From Sorangium cellulosum (GTDB lineage Bacteria; Myxococcota_A; Polyangia; Polyangiales; Polyangiaceae), in contig DYPH01000044.1 of NCBI GenBank assembly GCA_020720045.1, positions 1 to 40,639 of the forward strand: DNA of 40,639 nucleotides, in the 5' to 3' direction. Below the pieces are notes generated by a model that had not been told where the DNA came from, searched no databases, and saw only the letters and a list, made by a program, of their open reading frames with translations. Below, one piece after another: positions 24,291 to 30,553 of this stretch. The number at the start of each line of letters is the position of its first letter. Positions within the stretch are counted from its first letter, which is position 1. A program made the translations under genes and the position numbers.

Positions 24291-25763
24291 GTGACCGACT
24301 CGGCCAACGATTCACGAGCCCGAATTTTGCGCGGGCCGCTCGCCTGGGAAACGTTCCGCTTTGGCTTCCCGCTCGCCCTCGGGATGGCGCTCCAGACGAC
24401 CTTTAACCTGGTCGATGCGTGGCTCGTGTCCCACCTCGGCGCGGAAGAAGTTTCGGCGGCGGTAGGCGCGATGGGGATTTGCGACCAGCTCACCGCGGTC
24501 GGAACCATCGTCGCCTATGGCGTCTCCACCGCAACGGCCACGCGGCTCTCGCAGGCGGTCGGTCGCCCGGCGGAAACCGAAGAGATTCGCAAACAAAATC
24601 AGGACGATGCCGCACGAACCGCCGGTCAATCCCTGCTGATTATCGGTGTACTCTCCCTGCTTTTCGCCGTCGTCGGTTGGGGCGGCTCCGGGTTCCTCGT
24701 CCGCACGGTGATCGGCGCGAAAGGGGCTGTTGCCGACGTCGCCGAAGCGACGATGCGGATCATGATCGGCGGCAGCTTCAGCATCTTCTTTTTGCTGCAT
24801 CTTACAACGATGCAGCGGGCGCTCGGCGCCTCGAAGACGCCGGTTTCCATGCTGGTGCTTGGGAACGTGATCAACGTTGCCCTCGCTGTCGTCTTCATCT
24901 TTGGCGACACGGAGAGCGCCCCCTACCTCGCTTGGGGGCGCCCGATCGCGCGCCTCCTCCATGTGCCGCGCCTCGGGATGATCGGCGCCGCCTGGGCGAC
25001 GGTCCTCGCCCGTTCGTTGGTTCTATTGCCGACGGTCCTCGTGCTTGTCGCTCGCTGGAAGGACCTCCTCCAGCGAAAGTACCTTGTGCCTATTTCCAAG
25101 GAACTAAGGGTACTTTCGTCGCTCGCGTGGCCGTCGTCGGCCCAGTTTGTCGTGCGGATCGCGGCGATGCTCGTGCTCCACAGCATCGTCGCGCGCAATT
25201 TCACGACGGCGACCGACCAGACGGCGACGGTGGCGATGGGCCTCGTCTTCCGCCCCGATACGATGGTGCTTTTTGTCGCCATGGGGTGGGGCAGCGCCGC
25301 GCAAACCTTCGTCGGCTTTCACGTCGGCGCCGGCGATTTTCCTCGCGCCAAGCGGGCTGCGGGAATGCTGGCCGGCTGGGATGTGCTCACCAACATCGCG
25401 CTCGCCTACGCGTTCGTCCGCTACGGCGGTACGCTTCTCGGTGTATTCTGCAAGGAGCCTGCACCGATCGCCCTCGGAATGCGCTACCTAGTGACAGTAG
25501 CCCCTGCCTACCTCCCGTTGGGGCTCGCCATCGTCCTCGCGAACGGCCTCGCCGGTGCCGGAGAGACCCGCCTCACCTTTTCCCTCGATCTTCTTGTGCT
25601 TCTCCTCGCCGAACTCCCCCTCTGCCTCCTCCTCGGTGCAACGCCCGACGGCCTCTTCCGCGGCCTCGCGCTTGCGAACGGCGTCCTTGGCGCCGTCTAC
25701 CTTGTTGTTTTCCTGCGTGGACGCTGGCTGCCGAGCCACGGCGCGACCCCGGAGGTGGCGTGA
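24291..25763 (+). CDS. MATE-family efflux transporter
   Basis: 490 residues with about twelve hydrophobic helices, the MATE layout. The start is a GTG. N-terminal features match: Phe-Gly-Phe-Pro-Leu-Ala-Leu-Gly-Met, Phe-Asn-Leu-Val-Asp-Ala-Trp-Leu-Val-Ser-His-Leu-Gly-Ala-Glu-Glu-Val-Ser-Ala. Later come Arg-Ala-Leu-Gly-Ala-Ser-Lys-Thr-Pro and Gly-Asn-Val-Ile-Asn-Val-Ala-Leu, and in the second half Gly-Trp-Gly-Ser-Ala-Ala-Gln-Thr-Phe-Val-Gly-Phe-His-Val-Gly-Ala-Gly. MATE pumps export drugs or metabolites against H+ or Na+. No substrate can be read from the sequence. It is translationally coupled (TGATG) to an alpha/beta hydrolase, so the pump may handle something the hydrolase makes or modifies. 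Confidence 0.93.
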   Translation: MTDSANDSRARILRGPLAWETFRFGFPLALGMALQTTFNLVDAWLVSHLGAEEVSAAVGAMGICDQLTAVGTIVAYGVSTATATRLSQAVGRPAETEEIRKQNQDDAARTAGQSLLIIGVLSLLFAVVGWGGSGFLVRTVIGAKGAVADVAEATMRIMIGGSFSIFFLLHLTTMQRALGASKTPVSMLVLGNVINVALAVVFIFGDTESAPYLAWGRPIARLLHVPRLGMIGAAWATVLARSLVLLPTVLVLVARWKDLLQRKYLVPISKELRVLSSLAWPSSAQFVVRIAAMLVLHSIVARNFTTATDQTATVAMGLVFRPDTMVLFVAMGWGSAAQTFVGFHVGAGDFPRAKRAAGMLAGWDVLTNIALAYAFVRYGGTLLGVFCKEPAPIALGMRYLVTVAPAYLPLGLAIVLANGLAGAGETRLTFSLDLLVLLLAELPLCLLLGATPDGLFRGLALANGVLGAVYLVVFLRGRWLPSHGATPEVA

Positions 25764-26584
25764 TGGTGCGCCTCCGTCACGTCGTTCAGGGGGCCGCGCT
25801 TGCTTCCGCCGGCTTCGGTGCGTTGAACGTCCTCGCGCGGACGCGGTACCGGTCTTTTCTGTATCCTGCACCGAAGTTTGATCACGCAAAACTTCCCGAA
25901 AATGCTCGACCTTTGGACCTCCGCGCCGCAGATGGCGTCCGCGTTCGGGCAGCTTTTTTTGATGCGACGTCTCGCGAGAATCCGGCGCCGATGACGCTCG
26001 CCCTGTTTCACGGGAACGGTGAGGCATTGGGTCAGCTCATTCCCCTCGCCGCCTGCTTTGTGCGGCTTGGGGTTTCGGTCGCGCTCCTGGAGTACCGGGG
26101 TTACGGAAAGTCGTTCGGCGAGGCCAAGCCGACGGAGGCTGGCCTCTACGCCGACGCGCGTTGCCTTCTCCATTGGCTCGATAGCCAGGGAATCGGCCCC
26201 ACGCGCATCACCGCCCTCGGAATCTCCCTAGGGACCGGCGTCGCCACGCAGATGGCCCATGAGCATCGCGTAGGGACGCTCGTGCTGGTCACGCCATACA
26301 CGAGCATTCCGGCCATGGTGCGTCGTTTCGCCCCGTTTTTGCCTACAAAATTGCTCGTCGGCGATCGCTACGACACGCTCACGAAGGCCCCGTCCATCGC
26401 CCGGCCGACGCTCGTCATTCACGGGACGGAAGACGAGCTAATCCCCTACAAAATGGGGGCGACGCTCGCAGCGACCTTCCCCCACGCGACACTTCGCACC
26501 GTGCTTCACGGTCACCACAACGATCTCTTCGCCAAAGCGCCCGAGCTTGTGAACGAGATCGTTGCGTTTATGAATCAGAGCTAG
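25763..26584 (+). CDS. alpha/beta hydrolase
   Basis: 273 residues starting at an ATG that overlaps the MATE stop by one base. Fold landmarks: an oxyanion/strand-3 block Phe-His-Gly-Asn-Gly-Glu, then Glu-Tyr-Arg-Gly-Tyr-Gly-Lys-Ser, the nucleophile elbow Gly-Ile-Ser-Leu-Gly-Thr-Gly, the acid in Gly-Thr-Glu-Asp-Glu-Leu-Ile-Pro, and a C-terminal His in Gly-His-His-Asn-Asp-Leu-Phe. This is the BEM46/FrsA-like serine hydrolase type. A short N-terminal hydrophobic stretch (residues 8-25) may be a membrane anchor. Esterase/lipase-like activity is expected, substrate unknown. The same frame is open far upstream, but that stretch is the shadow of the MATE gene. Confidence 0.92.
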   Translation: MVRLRHVVQGAALASAGFGALNVLARTRYRSFLYPAPKFDHAKLPENARPLDLRAADGVRVRAAFFDATSRENPAPMTLALFHGNGEALGQLIPLAACFVRLGVSVALLEYRGYGKSFGEAKPTEAGLYADARCLLHWLDSQGIGPTRITALGISLGTGVATQMAHEHRVGTLVLVTPYTSIPAMVRRFAPFLPTKLLVGDRYDTLTKAPSIARPTLVIHGTEDELIPYKMGATLAATFPHATLRTVLHGHHNDLFAKAPELVNEIVAFMNQS

Positions 26585-26588
26585 CGGC

Positions 26589-28208
26589 TCACCCGCCGTG
26601 GCCTGGCCCGAGAATCAAAGGCCGCTTGGCGGCAACATCAAACGCGTGGACGTGGGGCGGATGGTGGCAGGTCGTACATACGTCTGCCCCCGGGTTTGCG
26701 TTCGGAATTTTTGCACTTTTCGGTGCCGCCGCGTGCTTGGAGCCGGCGCCGTGGCAGTTCTCGCATTGCACGTCCGTGAGCTTCTCAACGTGGGCCACCG
26801 TGCTCCCACCGGGCTTGTCGTAACCGGTCACGTGGCAGCCGACGCAATCGAGGTTATGGGCTTTGTATTGGTCGGAGAGCGTCTTGTATGCGTGGGCGTG
26901 CGCCGTCTTGTCCCAGACCTTCCGCGCGTCTTGATGGCAGGAGGAGCAGACCTCCACACCGACGTAAGAAGCCCCATCCTTTTCCGGCGGTAGCGGCATC
27001 TTGGTCGCGAAGGTACGTAGATTGTCTTCGTCGACCTTCTTGTAATAGGAGAGCATCCGCGCCGCGACGCCTTCGTCTTTGCCTGCATCAGGGCGGACGT
27101 CGCGCATCGCGAAGCGTGAATAGCTCCCCACCGCCGGGATAGGCCCCTTCTCCAAGGCACGCAACTCGCTCTCTTTGCTTGCGAGAGTGTCGCGGAGCGG
27201 AGCGCGCTTCTTGTCAGCATCGGGGCCGTCGGCGAGGTCGGCGATCTTCCCGCGGAGATCCTGAATCTCCTTGGAGAGGTCGACCTTCTTTCGCGCTTCT
27301 CCCGTGTTTGATGCATCGGCAAACAGGTATTTTCCGTCGCGCACGTAGAGGTCAAGGACGCCGACCGTCTGAAGGTGGTTTGCCGTCTCGACAATCAACG
27401 TATCGCCGAGCCGCTCGACGGGGGGCGCTTCCGTGTTCGAGTCCCCTTCTGTGGCTTTCGAGCCGACGACAATCGCGGCAAGCTCGGGGACGTCGTCGGC
27501 GATGCGCTTCGCGGCGCCACGCCCAATAGCGGCAAGAAGTACGAAGGTTTGGGCCCCTTCCCCCTTTGCGGCGGCGAGCTCCTGCTTGACCGTCGCGGCA
27601 AGCTCGTCCGTCCCCGCGTCGGGCGTCGCGGCCGCGGCGCCGAGGATGCCGATCTTGATTCCGCCGACCTCGCGCACCACGTGGCCGACGGCGCCGACCG
27701 CCGCGCCCCCCGCGCCGGCCCCGCCGACGATGGTCGCGCCGCTCGCCTTGCTGAGCGCCTTGAGGTCTGCGGCGCCAAAGGCGAGGTCATTCACGCCGGG
27801 CGCGAAGGCGAGAAGTGCTGGAAGATCCTTGCGATTTCCTGGCTGAAAGGCCTGCGCGATCGCGAGCGCCTTTGCTTTCTCTTGCTCGGCCTTCACCGGG
27901 ACAATCTTCGAGTCCATGTAGAAAAGCGGACCGGCCGCCAGGATCGCCGCGGGGGCGTGAACCGTCCCGCTCCCCGACGCAAGCAGGGCGGCGAAGCGAT
28001 CCATCCCGCCCCGCTGGTCCTTTACGCAACCGCAGGGCTCAAGAGCGGCGGCAAAATCGGAGACCAAATAGAGGCGCGCGGTCGGCGTCGCCGACATCGG
28101 GGCGGTTCCCGCATCGACCTGCTCCTTCGGTCGGCAGCCGTCGCAGGCGACGAACCCGGGGAGCACCGCCGCCGCGAGCAGGCCGCTCGCGAGGAGCGGG
28201 CTCGGCAT
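26589..28208 (-). CDS. tetrahaem cytochrome c with 5'-nucleotidase-like domain
   Basis: 539 residues from the ATG at 28208, which starts a signal peptide leading to Phe-Val-Ala-Cys, a lipobox-like end; an ATG at 28268 is also possible. The N-terminal ~280 residues resemble periplasmic 5'-nucleotidase/calcineurin-like proteins of the subtype with Leu-Glu-Pro-Cys-Gly-Cys followed by Arg-Gly-Gly-Met-Asp-Arg. However, the usual Gly-Asn-His-Glu is replaced by Gly-Val-Asn-Asp, so hydrolase activity is doubtful. After a charged helical linker come four haem c sites: Cys-Ser-Ser-Cys-His, Cys-Val-Gly-Cys-His, Cys-Glu-Asn-Cys-His and Cys-Thr-Thr-Cys-His, in the arrangement of cytochrome c554-type domains. 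It would carry electrons in the periplasm. It converges on the hydrolase gene with four bases between stops. Confidence 0.9.
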   Translation of the reverse strand: MPSPLLASGLLAAAVLPGFVACDGCRPKEQVDAGTAPMSATPTARLYLVSDFAAALEPCGCVKDQRGGMDRFAALLASGSGTVHAPAAILAAGPLFYMDSKIVPVKAEQEKAKALAIAQAFQPGNRKDLPALLAFAPGVNDLAFGAADLKALSKASGATIVGGAGAGGAAVGAVGHVVREVGGIKIGILGAAAATPDAGTDELAATVKQELAAAKGEGAQTFVLLAAIGRGAAKRIADDVPELAAIVVGSKATEGDSNTEAPPVERLGDTLIVETANHLQTVGVLDLYVRDGKYLFADASNTGEARKKVDLSKEIQDLRGKIADLADGPDADKKRAPLRDTLASKESELRALEKGPIPAVGSYSRFAMRDVRPDAGKDEGVAARMLSYYKKVDEDNLRTFATKMPLPPEKDGASYVGVEVCSSCHQDARKVWDKTAHAHAYKTLSDQYKAHNLDCVGCHVTGYDKPGGSTVAHVEKLTDVQCENCHGAGSKHAAAPKSAKIPNANPGADVCTTCHHPPHVHAFDVAAKRPLILGPGHGG

Positions 28209-28435
28209 TCGAGCGAATTTACGAAAGAACGAGCGAAGGGTGCCGGAGGGATTCGACCGCAAAAGCATCGCGCCCGACGCTAGTCGGGTTGCGCCGGAAG
28301 CGGCAGCGCGATCGACATCGGCCGGCCAGCGACGCTCCACTGGCGGTCGATTGTCCGGTCCATCGCGCGTGATCGGAGGTAGACGGGACAGTTCATCCTT
28401 CATGCTTTTTCGAGCGCGCTTCGAGGAGAACTTCT

Positions 28436-30553
28436 TTGGCTAACGACGACGGGAAACAGCTCGGTGGGAAGCGGCTCGGGCCGTTCCTGGTCGATTCCCG
28501 GCTCGCCGTCGGCGGGACGAGTGAGGTCTTCCTTGTGCGCCGCCATGGAGTCACCCCATCGCCGACGCTCGTCCTGAAGCGGCCGCTCTCGTGGCTCCAG
28601 TCCGATGAGAATTTTCGCGAAATGTTCGCGCGGGAAGCGCAGCTCCAGGCGCTCGTCCGCCATAGAAACGTCGTTGAAGTCTTCGAAACAGGACTCCTAC
28701 CCGGCGGGGAGCCGTTTCTCACGCTTGAATTCGTCGACGGCATTGACGGCTATCGACTGCTGAGGCGCCTCCGCCAGGAAGATCGAAAGCTCGCGAGCGG
28801 CGTCGCCGTCCACCTTGTTGCCGAGCTCCTTGAAGCACTTTCCGCGGTGCACACTGCCTGCGATCCTGCGGGACATCCCCTCGGAATCATTCATCGCGAC
28901 GTGAGCCCGTCGAATCTCTACATCGGCGAAGATGGTCGCGTAAAACTTGGTGATTTTGGTCTTGCGTCGACGATGCATCGCGCATCACGACCCGATTCCG
29001 GCGCGACGCTGAAGGGAAAATTCGCGTATGTAGCGCCAGAGCAGGTCGAAGGTATTCCCTTTGATCATCGGGCCGATCTCTTCAGTGCTGCGATTGTTCT
29101 TGCAGAAGCGCTCCTTGGGCAGCAGCTTTTCCGGGGCGCAGGGCAGCTCGCCGTCCTCCTCGCGATCCGCGATTGTGATCTCGCCCCTCTCGACGCGCTC
29201 GAAGGCGTCGTGCCGGGCGGCCTCCTCGGCGCACTGCGCAACGCGCTCGCGAAAGATCCAAACCACCGCTTTCAAGATGGCACCGCTTTTCGCGCGGCGA
29301 TCCTCCCGTTCGCCGTGCCGGCTCCCCAGGCAGCCCGCGCGCTGCGGGCGGAAGTCCTGCGAATTCGGGGCAATCCGACGCGGGCTATGGAACGCGTCTC
29401 GCCCGCGACCATCGTTGGGGCGACCTTCGAGTCGCTGACGGCTGGCGTCGCGCAACCGCCTCCCAAAGCCCCCGCCGAGCTCCCCAGCGGCTTTGGGGTG
29501 CCGGCGGCGCTCGCGCCCGAGGCGACGCGCGCCCCGACCCTCCCGGAAATGCGCGAACCGGCGACAACGACGAGCTACGGAACCGCCGCGAATTTCTTCC
29601 GTTCCCCGGACGGGACGACCCACGGTCCCCTCTCGTTTGCCGAACTTATCGAAGCACTTATCGTCGGTCGCATCGAAGCGACCGACCCCGTCTCGTACCA
29701 AGGGGCCCCCTTCGTCCCCTGCGGCACCATCGATGAGCTTCTCCGTTTCCTGCCTTCGGCGACCGCCACGACGACCGCACTCAGCGGCCCCGATCTCGCG
29801 GCAGGGCGGACAAACCTCACACCGCTCGCGTTGCTTTCCCACCTCGCCGACGGCTGGCGCATGCGGGGCGACGCCGCGCTGATTTGCGAGCGGCCCCTCC
29901 GCGGGGACGACCAGGAGTCGGGGCGGGTCGATCGGAAGGAAGTCTACCTGCGCGAGGGCTTCCTCTACCAGGTCGCTTCGAACGAACCGAGCGAACTTCT
30001 TGGTGAATTCCTTCTCCGCCGCGGCCAGCTCGATGCTCCTGGGCTCGCGCTCGCGAAGGGGCACCTCTCCCGCTACGAGGGGCGTATGGGGGACACGCTC
30101 ATCGCCCTCGGCCTCGTCGACCCGATGACAATCTTCCAGGCGATCCGCGCGCAGGGCCGCTCTCGCCTCGCCGACCTCTTCGGCTGGCCCGAGGGCTCGT
30201 TGCTCGTCGTCCCCGGCGGCGCGAAGGTTCGTCCTGAATTTCCGTTGAAATTGGATATCTTGACGGCGCTGGTCGAAGCAACGTCGACGGTCACCTTCCC
30301 GGTGCCGACGGGACCGTTCCGTGCGGTCGCGAACGTCGATCGTCCCGAGAGCCGACCGACCCCCTCCACGCGCGCGGGCGCCCCCGCCGCGCTTCCTCCG
30401 CTCCTCGAACGCGTCCTCGACGGCCTCCCCCTCGACCGATCCACCGCCTACGACGATGTCCTGCGACACCTCGCCCGCGGCGGCTATTCCGAGCTCGATG
30501 CCCGGCGCGCGCTGCACATTTTGATTGCCGCTGGCCTCGCAACCCGCGTCTGA
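28436..30553 (+). CDS. Ser/Thr kinase with GYF-like and DUF4388-like modules
   Basis: 705 residues from a TTG with GAGGAGAA (28423-28430) five bases upstream. The Hanks-type kinase domain (residues 14-290) has a reduced glycine loop Val-Gly-Gly-Thr-Ser-Glu-Val, Lys48, the catalytic His-Arg-Asp (153-155), Asp-Phe-Gly (173-175) and Ala-Pro-Glu (200-202), so it should be active. After a Pro/Ala linker, residues ~386-440 read as a GYF_2/DUF4339-type module (Asp-Gly-Thr-Thr-His-Gly-Pro-Leu-Ser-Phe-Ala-Glu-Leu). Residues ~500-640 look like the DUF4388/PATAN type (Leu-Gly-Glu-Phe-Leu-Leu-Arg-Arg-Gly-Gln-Leu and a Phe-Gln-Ala-Ile repeat). No membrane helix is seen; it is cytosolic. It converges on the MCE gene with ten bases between stops. 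Confidence 0.92.
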   Translation: MANDDGKQLGGKRLGPFLVDSRLAVGGTSEVFLVRRHGVTPSPTLVLKRPLSWLQSDENFREMFAREAQLQALVRHRNVVEVFETGLLPGGEPFLTLEFVDGIDGYRLLRRLRQEDRKLASGVAVHLVAELLEALSAVHTACDPAGHPLGIIHRDVSPSNLYIGEDGRVKLGDFGLASTMHRASRPDSGATLKGKFAYVAPEQVEGIPFDHRADLFSAAIVLAEALLGQQLFRGAGQLAVLLAIRDCDLAPLDALEGVVPGGLLGALRNALAKDPNHRFQDGTAFRAAILPFAVPAPQAARALRAEVLRIRGNPTRAMERVSPATIVGATFESLTAGVAQPPPKAPAELPSGFGVPAALAPEATRAPTLPEMREPATTTSYGTAANFFRSPDGTTHGPLSFAELIEALIVGRIEATDPVSYQGAPFVPCGTIDELLRFLPSATATTTALSGPDLAAGRTNLTPLALLSHLADGWRMRGDAALICERPLRGDDQESGRVDRKEVYLREGFLYQVASNEPSELLGEFLLRRGQLDAPGLALAKGHLSRYEGRMGDTLIALGLVDPMTIFQAIRAQGRSRLADLFGWPEGSLLVVPGGAKVRPEFPLKLDILTALVEATSTVTFPVPTGPFRAVANVDRPESRPTPSTRAGAPAALPPLLERVLDGLPLDRSTAYDDVLRHLARGGYSELDARRALHILIAAGLATRV

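Follow-up and report, generated by a model that had tools for sequence, protein, structure and literature searches.

A tetrahaem cytochrome fused to a UshA-type domain that has lost its metal ligands and carries a conserved Cys-Gly-Cys motif

Introduction

What does a hydrolase fold do when it is joined to a cytochrome? The question is raised by a gene of Sorangium cellulosum on contig DYPH01000044.1 (assembly GCA_020720045.1), the whole 40,639 nucleotides of which are referred to here as the window. A preliminary description of this gene, drawn from the sequence alone, had read the product as a tetrahaem cytochrome fused to a possibly inactive 5'-nucleotidase-like domain. It suggested that a phosphoesterase scaffold may have been reused as a binding or docking part for the haem domain, and that a Cys-Gly-Cys motif may itself bind metal or haem. 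The analysis described below leads us to conclude that the protein probably carries out redox chemistry rather than nucleotide cutting, because its Cys-Gly-Cys sits where relatives carry selenocysteine.

Results

The gene and its surroundings

The gene occupies 26589..28208 on the minus strand, with its ATG at 28208 and its stop at 26589, and encodes 539 residues. The reading frame is open upstream of this ATG as far as 28403, and a second in-frame ATG at 28268 is a possible longer start, which would give the signal peptide a basic n-region. From the sequence, residues 1-22 (28143..28208, minus strand) are a signal peptide with a lipobox-like end, FVAC. Cys22, whose column holds Cys in 25/31 aligned relatives, is a probable lipid anchor. 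The protein contains 12 cysteines, eight of them in haem motifs and the others being Cys22, Cys25, Cys59 and Cys61.

The gene stands alone. On one side of it is a divergently transcribed Ser/Thr kinase gene (28436-30553) that includes a DUF4388-like part, and on the other a convergent gene for an alpha/beta hydrolase (about 25763-26584). No match to the gene was obtained among plasmid records, and two contigs of one genome of the same genus (L126 and L127) carry near-identical halves of it.

A c554-like tetrahaem domain

Residues 412-539 (26592..26975, minus strand) form a cytochrome c554-like tetrahaem domain, identified by its match to PF13435 (55.4 bits against a gathering cut-off of 20.8), by AF2 modelling and by VIA-align structure comparison. 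The four haem motifs, all on the minus strand, are CSSCH at residues 421-425 (26934..26948), CVGCH at 455-459 (26832..26846), CENCH at 482-486 (26751..26765) and CTTCH at 511-515 (26664..26678); four CXXCH motifs did not arise in any of 20000 shuffles of the protein. Folded alone, the domain was modelled with a pLDDT of 95.4. Its best structural match was Nitrosomonas c554 (1ft6; Z 12.5, 125 aligned residues, rmsd 2.4), the next being OcwA with a Z of 7.4.

Besides the CXXCH histidines, exactly four histidines (437, 492, 519 and 537) are invariant in 31/31 rows of an alignment of the window protein with the 30 top-ranked loci. In a wider alignment of 70 rows, His437 is found in 70, His492 in 69, His519 in 54 and His537 in 57. 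Four additional invariant histidines fit four bis-His haems, the most economical expectation from the sequence of the window protein, and such a haem complement would in turn point to a domain for electron transfer rather than catalysis.

A UshA-type domain without its metal site

The fold of the N-terminal part is that of the UshA-type metallophosphatases (residues 42-398; 27015..28085, minus strand). The AF2 model of this domain has a mean pLDDT of 86.6 and a pTM of 0.86, and in VIA-align it matched Thermus 5'-nucleotidase (2z1a) with a Z of 26.1 (262 aligned residues, rmsd 3.0), E. coli UshA with a Z of 25.8 and SoxB (2wdd) with a Z of 25.3. A profile built from 46 such N-terminal domains found YfkN at 9e-35 and SoxB at 1e-27. 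A Pfam search of the window protein returned the cytochrome c554 part only and no metallophosphatase. There was also no match to 5_nucleotid_C (PF02872) among matches up to an E of 5, and the haem domain takes the place of this domain. The two halves of the fusion proposed in the preliminary description are therefore both evident, in the four CXXCH motifs with the c554 fold and in the UshA/SoxB fold matched at a Z of about 26.

The first point to note about this domain is that Gly-Val-Asn-Asp (residues 138-141; 27786..27797, minus strand) stands where Gly-Asn-His-Glu is expected. To set the register, the 46-domain profile was aligned to structures already solved and to a canonical UshA paralogue encoded in the genome itself. 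The in-register pairs are GVND/GNHE, AGP94/(A)GD, SDFAAALEP/NDxHxHLEP, LAAIG/LSHLG and VGS/GGH. An intact set of ligands in some other register, considered as a candidate, was ruled out by these alignments, so that the replacement noted in the preliminary description stands. Of seven canonical metal and catalytic positions, the window protein is left with Asp51 alone, the other six being changed.

This loss is not peculiar to the window protein. In the 31-row and 70-row sets, respectively, the Asn of GNHE is missing from 31/31 and 70/70 rows, the catalytic His is kept in 0/31 and 3/70, the DxH His in 1/31 and 4/70, and the GD Asp in 7/31 and 15/70. On a loose count, no row retains more than four of the seven positions. 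Some relatives (L074 and L122) retain remnants such as LSHLG...GGHSR, indicating descent from a metal enzyme, and the UshA-like paralogues L003 and L004 of the same genome keep the DxH, GD, GNHE and GHxH motifs. Because the metal and catalytic ligands have been lost across the family, the phosphoesterase site is, as judged by sequence, dead, in line with the inactivity that the preliminary description had thought possible.

A long helical hairpin, seen in the AF2 secondary structure (residues 302-353; 27150..27305, minus strand), separates the conserved core of one domain from that of the other. Alignment gaps indicate that it is missing in several other phyla.

An invariant Cys-Gly-Cys or Cys-Gly-Sec motif

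The first strand is followed immediately by Pro-Cys-Gly-Cys (residues 58-61; 28026..28037, minus strand), no more than ten residues from the missing DxH ligands. This motif is present in 31/31 rows and, as EPCGC at 57-61, is the subtype motif that the preliminary description had picked out. No other element of the domain is as conserved as Cys59-Gly60-Cys61: across the 46 N-terminal domains, these three residues and two glycines are the sole invariant ones. The 70-row set used for the ligand counts was selected by PCG[C/U], and invariance of the motif within it is a selection effect. An unselected count gives the same picture, with CG[C/U] in 73/73 complete haem-fused loci, out of 80 loci on genome contigs. 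The remaining seven comprise two that are cut at the N-terminus (L065 and L105) and five other multihaem proteins (L084, L085, L097, L112 and L100). The preceding Pro is less strict, with EVCGC, EACGU, ETCGU, ENCGC and ESCGC variants. The Cys-Gly-Cys loop is one of the less confidently modelled regions of the AF2 structure (block means of 75 and 68).

In 17/73 haem-fused relatives the Cys61 column is selenocysteine, encoded by an in-frame TGA; the window gene has TGC at this position and is thus of the Cys form. In addition, six myxobacterial loci without any CXXCH (L118-L121, L123 and L124) have CG[C/U]. Since these haem-less relatives keep the motif, it is intrinsic to the domain rather than a ligand of the fused haems, contrary to one of the two roles first suggested for it. 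The top conservation of Cys-Gly-Cys within the domain, together with the exchange of its second Cys with selenocysteine, argues for chemistry at this motif, and it is likely the active site.

The haem-less proteins are encoded at L118:561-1676, L119:520-1635, L120:453-1727, L121:880-2214 (minus strand), L123:529-1650 and L124:564-2000, and three of these six Myxococcota proteins have an in-frame TGA. All fall below the cut-off of the NF041198 model discussed below and give weak matches to NF049981, and they may merit a family of their own. L117, which gave no clear reading, was left out of this count; L122 is a haem-fused Sec form.

Membership of a catalogued (seleno)protein family

An existing NCBIfam model describes this architecture, a point beyond the preliminary description. 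Residues 50-524 of the window protein match positions 30-517 of the 519 in that model, NF041198, "UshA-like (seleno)protein", with both domains collinear (5e-60); the bracketed prefix in the name leaves room for Cys forms. The score of 203.4 bits is below the equivalog cut-off of 275, whereas L066, a Sec form of the same architecture, scores 606 bits. Taken together, the score of L066 and the full-span match of the window protein at 203 bits indicate a fusion already on record, with the window protein as one of its divergent relatives of the Cys form. Matches to NF041198 at an E of up to 1e-10, a count which takes in ordinary UshA proteins, were present in 51/59 related genomes, and matches at up to 1e-35 in 74/114 genomes of the phylum. 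Five proteins of the phylum exceed the cut-off, and all five have one in-frame TGA.

UshA-like selenoproteins have been on record since at least 2008 (PMC2398784). That paper lists them as one of a small number of families lacking a conserved redox motif based on Cys, yet its table gives CxU. We found no functional study of the UshA-like (seleno)protein family in the literature searched.

Distribution of the Sec and Cys forms

Sec and Cys forms span phyla from Myxococcota and Desulfobacterota to Planctomycetota and Poribacteria, and the family is not lineage-specific. On a tree of 82 rows, inferred by a quick method with SH-aLRT as its only support, at least four Sec/Cys changes are needed. 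The window protein falls within a Cys clade of 40 rows to which Sec rows are sister, and a Sec form, L089, is sister to a Cys form, L090.

The selenocysteine factor gene selB was over cut-off in 15/17 Sec-form genomes, the exceptions being those of L072 and L080, and in 8/16 Cys-form genomes, which were chosen by hand from 56. In the genome of the window no selB match was over cut-off, the best reaching 104 of 242 bits. The RNA downstream of the codon folds more strongly in Sec genes (median z -0.74, n=17) than in Cys genes (0.42, n=56), these z-scores being drawn from related genes and hence not independent.

Two further loci deserve mention. L125 (G024:C212) is a Sec-form (PCGU) relative in the window's own family group, from a genome with selB over cut-off; its reading frame breaks inside the haem domain. 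L057 lies on a 9.0 Mb record titled Comamonas sp. KCTC 72670 (BNCN01000001.1), and on the tree its gene is the neighbour of that of Myxococcus sp. CA023, with a very short branch; this genome is probably Myxococcus under a wrong name.

Gene context and fused thiol domains

Neighbouring genes were clustered for 75/80 loci. No redox or sulfur partner was recurrent in these clusters, nor were sox genes or genes for metal resistance or transport. The recurrent neighbours were a Ser/Thr kinase in myxobacteria and, in Desulfobulbales-type loci, what we take from their sequences to be a RarA-type ATPase and DHH proteins. Single cases were a DsbA gene beside L108 and a small cytochrome-like ORF beside L104.

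Five loci (L069, L073, L099, L101 and L107) combine in one ORF the UshA-like CG[C/U] domain, the tetrahaem c554 domain and a DsbA/thioredoxin-like domain with CP[YF]G. They come from Poribacteria, Gemmatimonadota and Latescibacterota and lie in a distant branch. The DsbA-like assignment was checked with Pfam in three of the five, with scores at or below the gathering score.

Separately, L084, L085, L097 and L112, among the other multihaem proteins noted above, carry an AhpC-TSA/TlpA-like thiol domain (active site CPHC) with two c554-type tetrahaem units, an identity checked with Pfam on L085. In L122, a His-rich linker (HDHAGHAHGGHDHAG), a possible metal-binding stretch, lies between the two domains.

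Discussion

A proposed thiol/selenol site in an old metal pocket

The exchange of Sec and Cys, the CxC geometry, the tetrahaem relay and the five fusions to DsbA-like domains together point towards redox chemistry, by a thiol or a selenol, in the former metal pocket. On this reading, a phosphoesterase pocket whose metal site is gone would have been rebuilt around a thiol/selenol pair. Cys59 and Cys61 would be redox-active, either as a dithiol/disulfide or through thiolate attack on a sulfur or selenium substrate bound in the pocket. Electrons would be exchanged between this pair and the four predicted bis-His haems and, in one direction or the other, between the haems and cytochromes of the periplasm or outer membrane. 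We lean towards regarding the window protein as an oxidoreductase of the UshA-like (seleno)protein type, a lipoprotein located in the periplasm. Several observations speak against this reading: the neighbour clusters hold no recurrent redox partner, the window protein scores below the NF041198 cut-off, the Cys-Gly-Cys loop is modelled with lower confidence, His519 and His537 are not universal in the 70-row set, the DsbA-like matches are marginal and confined to a distant branch, and PMC2398784 does not list the family with those having Cys-based redox motifs. The broader proposition, that a whole branch of the calcineurin-like/UshA fold has swapped its hydrolytic binuclear metal centre for a Cys-Gly-Cys or Cys-Gly-Sec redox centre within one and the same pocket, wired to a tetrahaem relay in most of the members identified here, we put forward tentatively, its chances being a little short of even.

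Were this so, the family would amount to a new oxidoreductase class, periplasmic and acting through a thiol or selenol, found in many phyla and in Sec, Cys and haem-less forms. It would provide an example of a hydrolase fold turned electron-transfer enzyme, and a natural comparison of Sec and Cys in one enzyme. The reading of a dead nucleotidase gives way to a testable redox site at Cys59/Cys61, in a Cys form that can be expressed without selenocysteine machinery.

Other roles for the N-terminal domain

Instead of exchanging electrons, the Cys-Gly-Cys/Sec motif may hold a metal, such as Cu, Zn, Ni or a soft metal that is toxic, as a thiolate or selenolate site, with the tetrahaem domain reducing, reporting on or stabilising that metal. 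CxC is a common soft-metal chelate, Sec can ligate metals, as in FdhA and NiFeSe hydrogenase, and the pocket of the fold is a former metal site; the His-rich linker of L122 also fits. However, the N-terminal domain of the window protein has no further conserved Cys or His, and the neighbour clusters lack recurrent metal resistance or transport genes. We consider a metal site unlikely.

It is also doubtful, and rather more so, that the N-terminal domain is a dead scaffold which serves the haem domain solely by docking or binding, be it of a ligand or of a partner. The loss of the metal ligands with retention of the fold is consistent with such a role, and to this extent the idea of a reused scaffold is upheld. 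Passive docking or binding as the main role is not, given the top conservation of Cys-Gly-Cys: it leaves unexplained both an exact Cys-Gly-[Cys/Sec] in every complete haem-fused locus, with its Sec/Cys exchange, and the haem-less versions that keep the motif.

A narrower version of the redox reading would have the pocket bind a sulfur-loaded carrier or small sulfur compound, as in SoxB, making the protein a sulfur-specific dehydrogenase or reductase. Apart from the structural match, the SoxB profile finds the Sec form L066 at 6e-14 and the window protein at 8e-4. On the other hand, 5'-nucleotidases match equally well or better, the SoxB metal ligands are missing, and sox genes did not recur among the neighbour clusters examined. 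This specific form is improbable, and kinship with SoxB suggests only weakly that sulfur compounds are the substrate. Finally, an active nucleotidase or phosphodiesterase with an unusual ligand set, for which the fold alone speaks, can be dismissed as extremely improbable, in view of the six changed positions, the ceiling of four of seven in any member, the ligand motifs retained by L003 and L004 and the missing nucleotide-binding C-terminal domain.

Comparison with known systems

No solved two-domain homologue was among the structure matches listed. The multihaem cytochrome c selenoprotein MccSep (PDB 9wt8 and 9wt9) is a solved, Sec-containing protein to which the haem domain gives a weak match (8.7e-4). 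A phosphoesterase domain is not evident from its listing, the comparison resting on the molecule name only, and no paper on it was found in the literature searched. NF049981, UshA-like (seleno)protein family 2, has a related N-terminal domain and matches some fused relatives weakly, as it does the haem-less ones, but its model has 262 positions and no haem domain. As a home for the window protein it was set aside, not being among the families listed for it.

SoxB, a periplasmic thiosulfohydrolase, is alike in fold. The window protein differs from it in being fused to haem, in lacking the SoxB ligands and in its score against TIGR04486, 17.7 bits of a cut-off of 550. With UshA, 5'-nucleotidase, YfkN and CpdB (COG0737), residues 42-398 share the fold (Z 23.6-26.1) and the motif register, including LEP; in contrast to these enzymes, the window protein is without the metal and catalytic ligands and without 5_nucleotid_C, and has Cys-Gly-Cys added.

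The haem domain shares four haem motifs, its fold and 31% identity over 125 residues with Nitrosomonas cytochrome c554 (PF13435; 1bvb, 1ft6). It is shorter, is fused to another domain and has one conserved His more than c554 has for its distal ligands, haem 2 of c554 being five-coordinate. Closest of all is NF041198 (UshA_like_PCGU), with which the window protein has in common the two-domain span, PCG[C/U] and the four haem motifs, and from which it differs in having Cys for Sec, in its lower score and in belonging to a myxobacterial Cys clade with the long helical hairpin.
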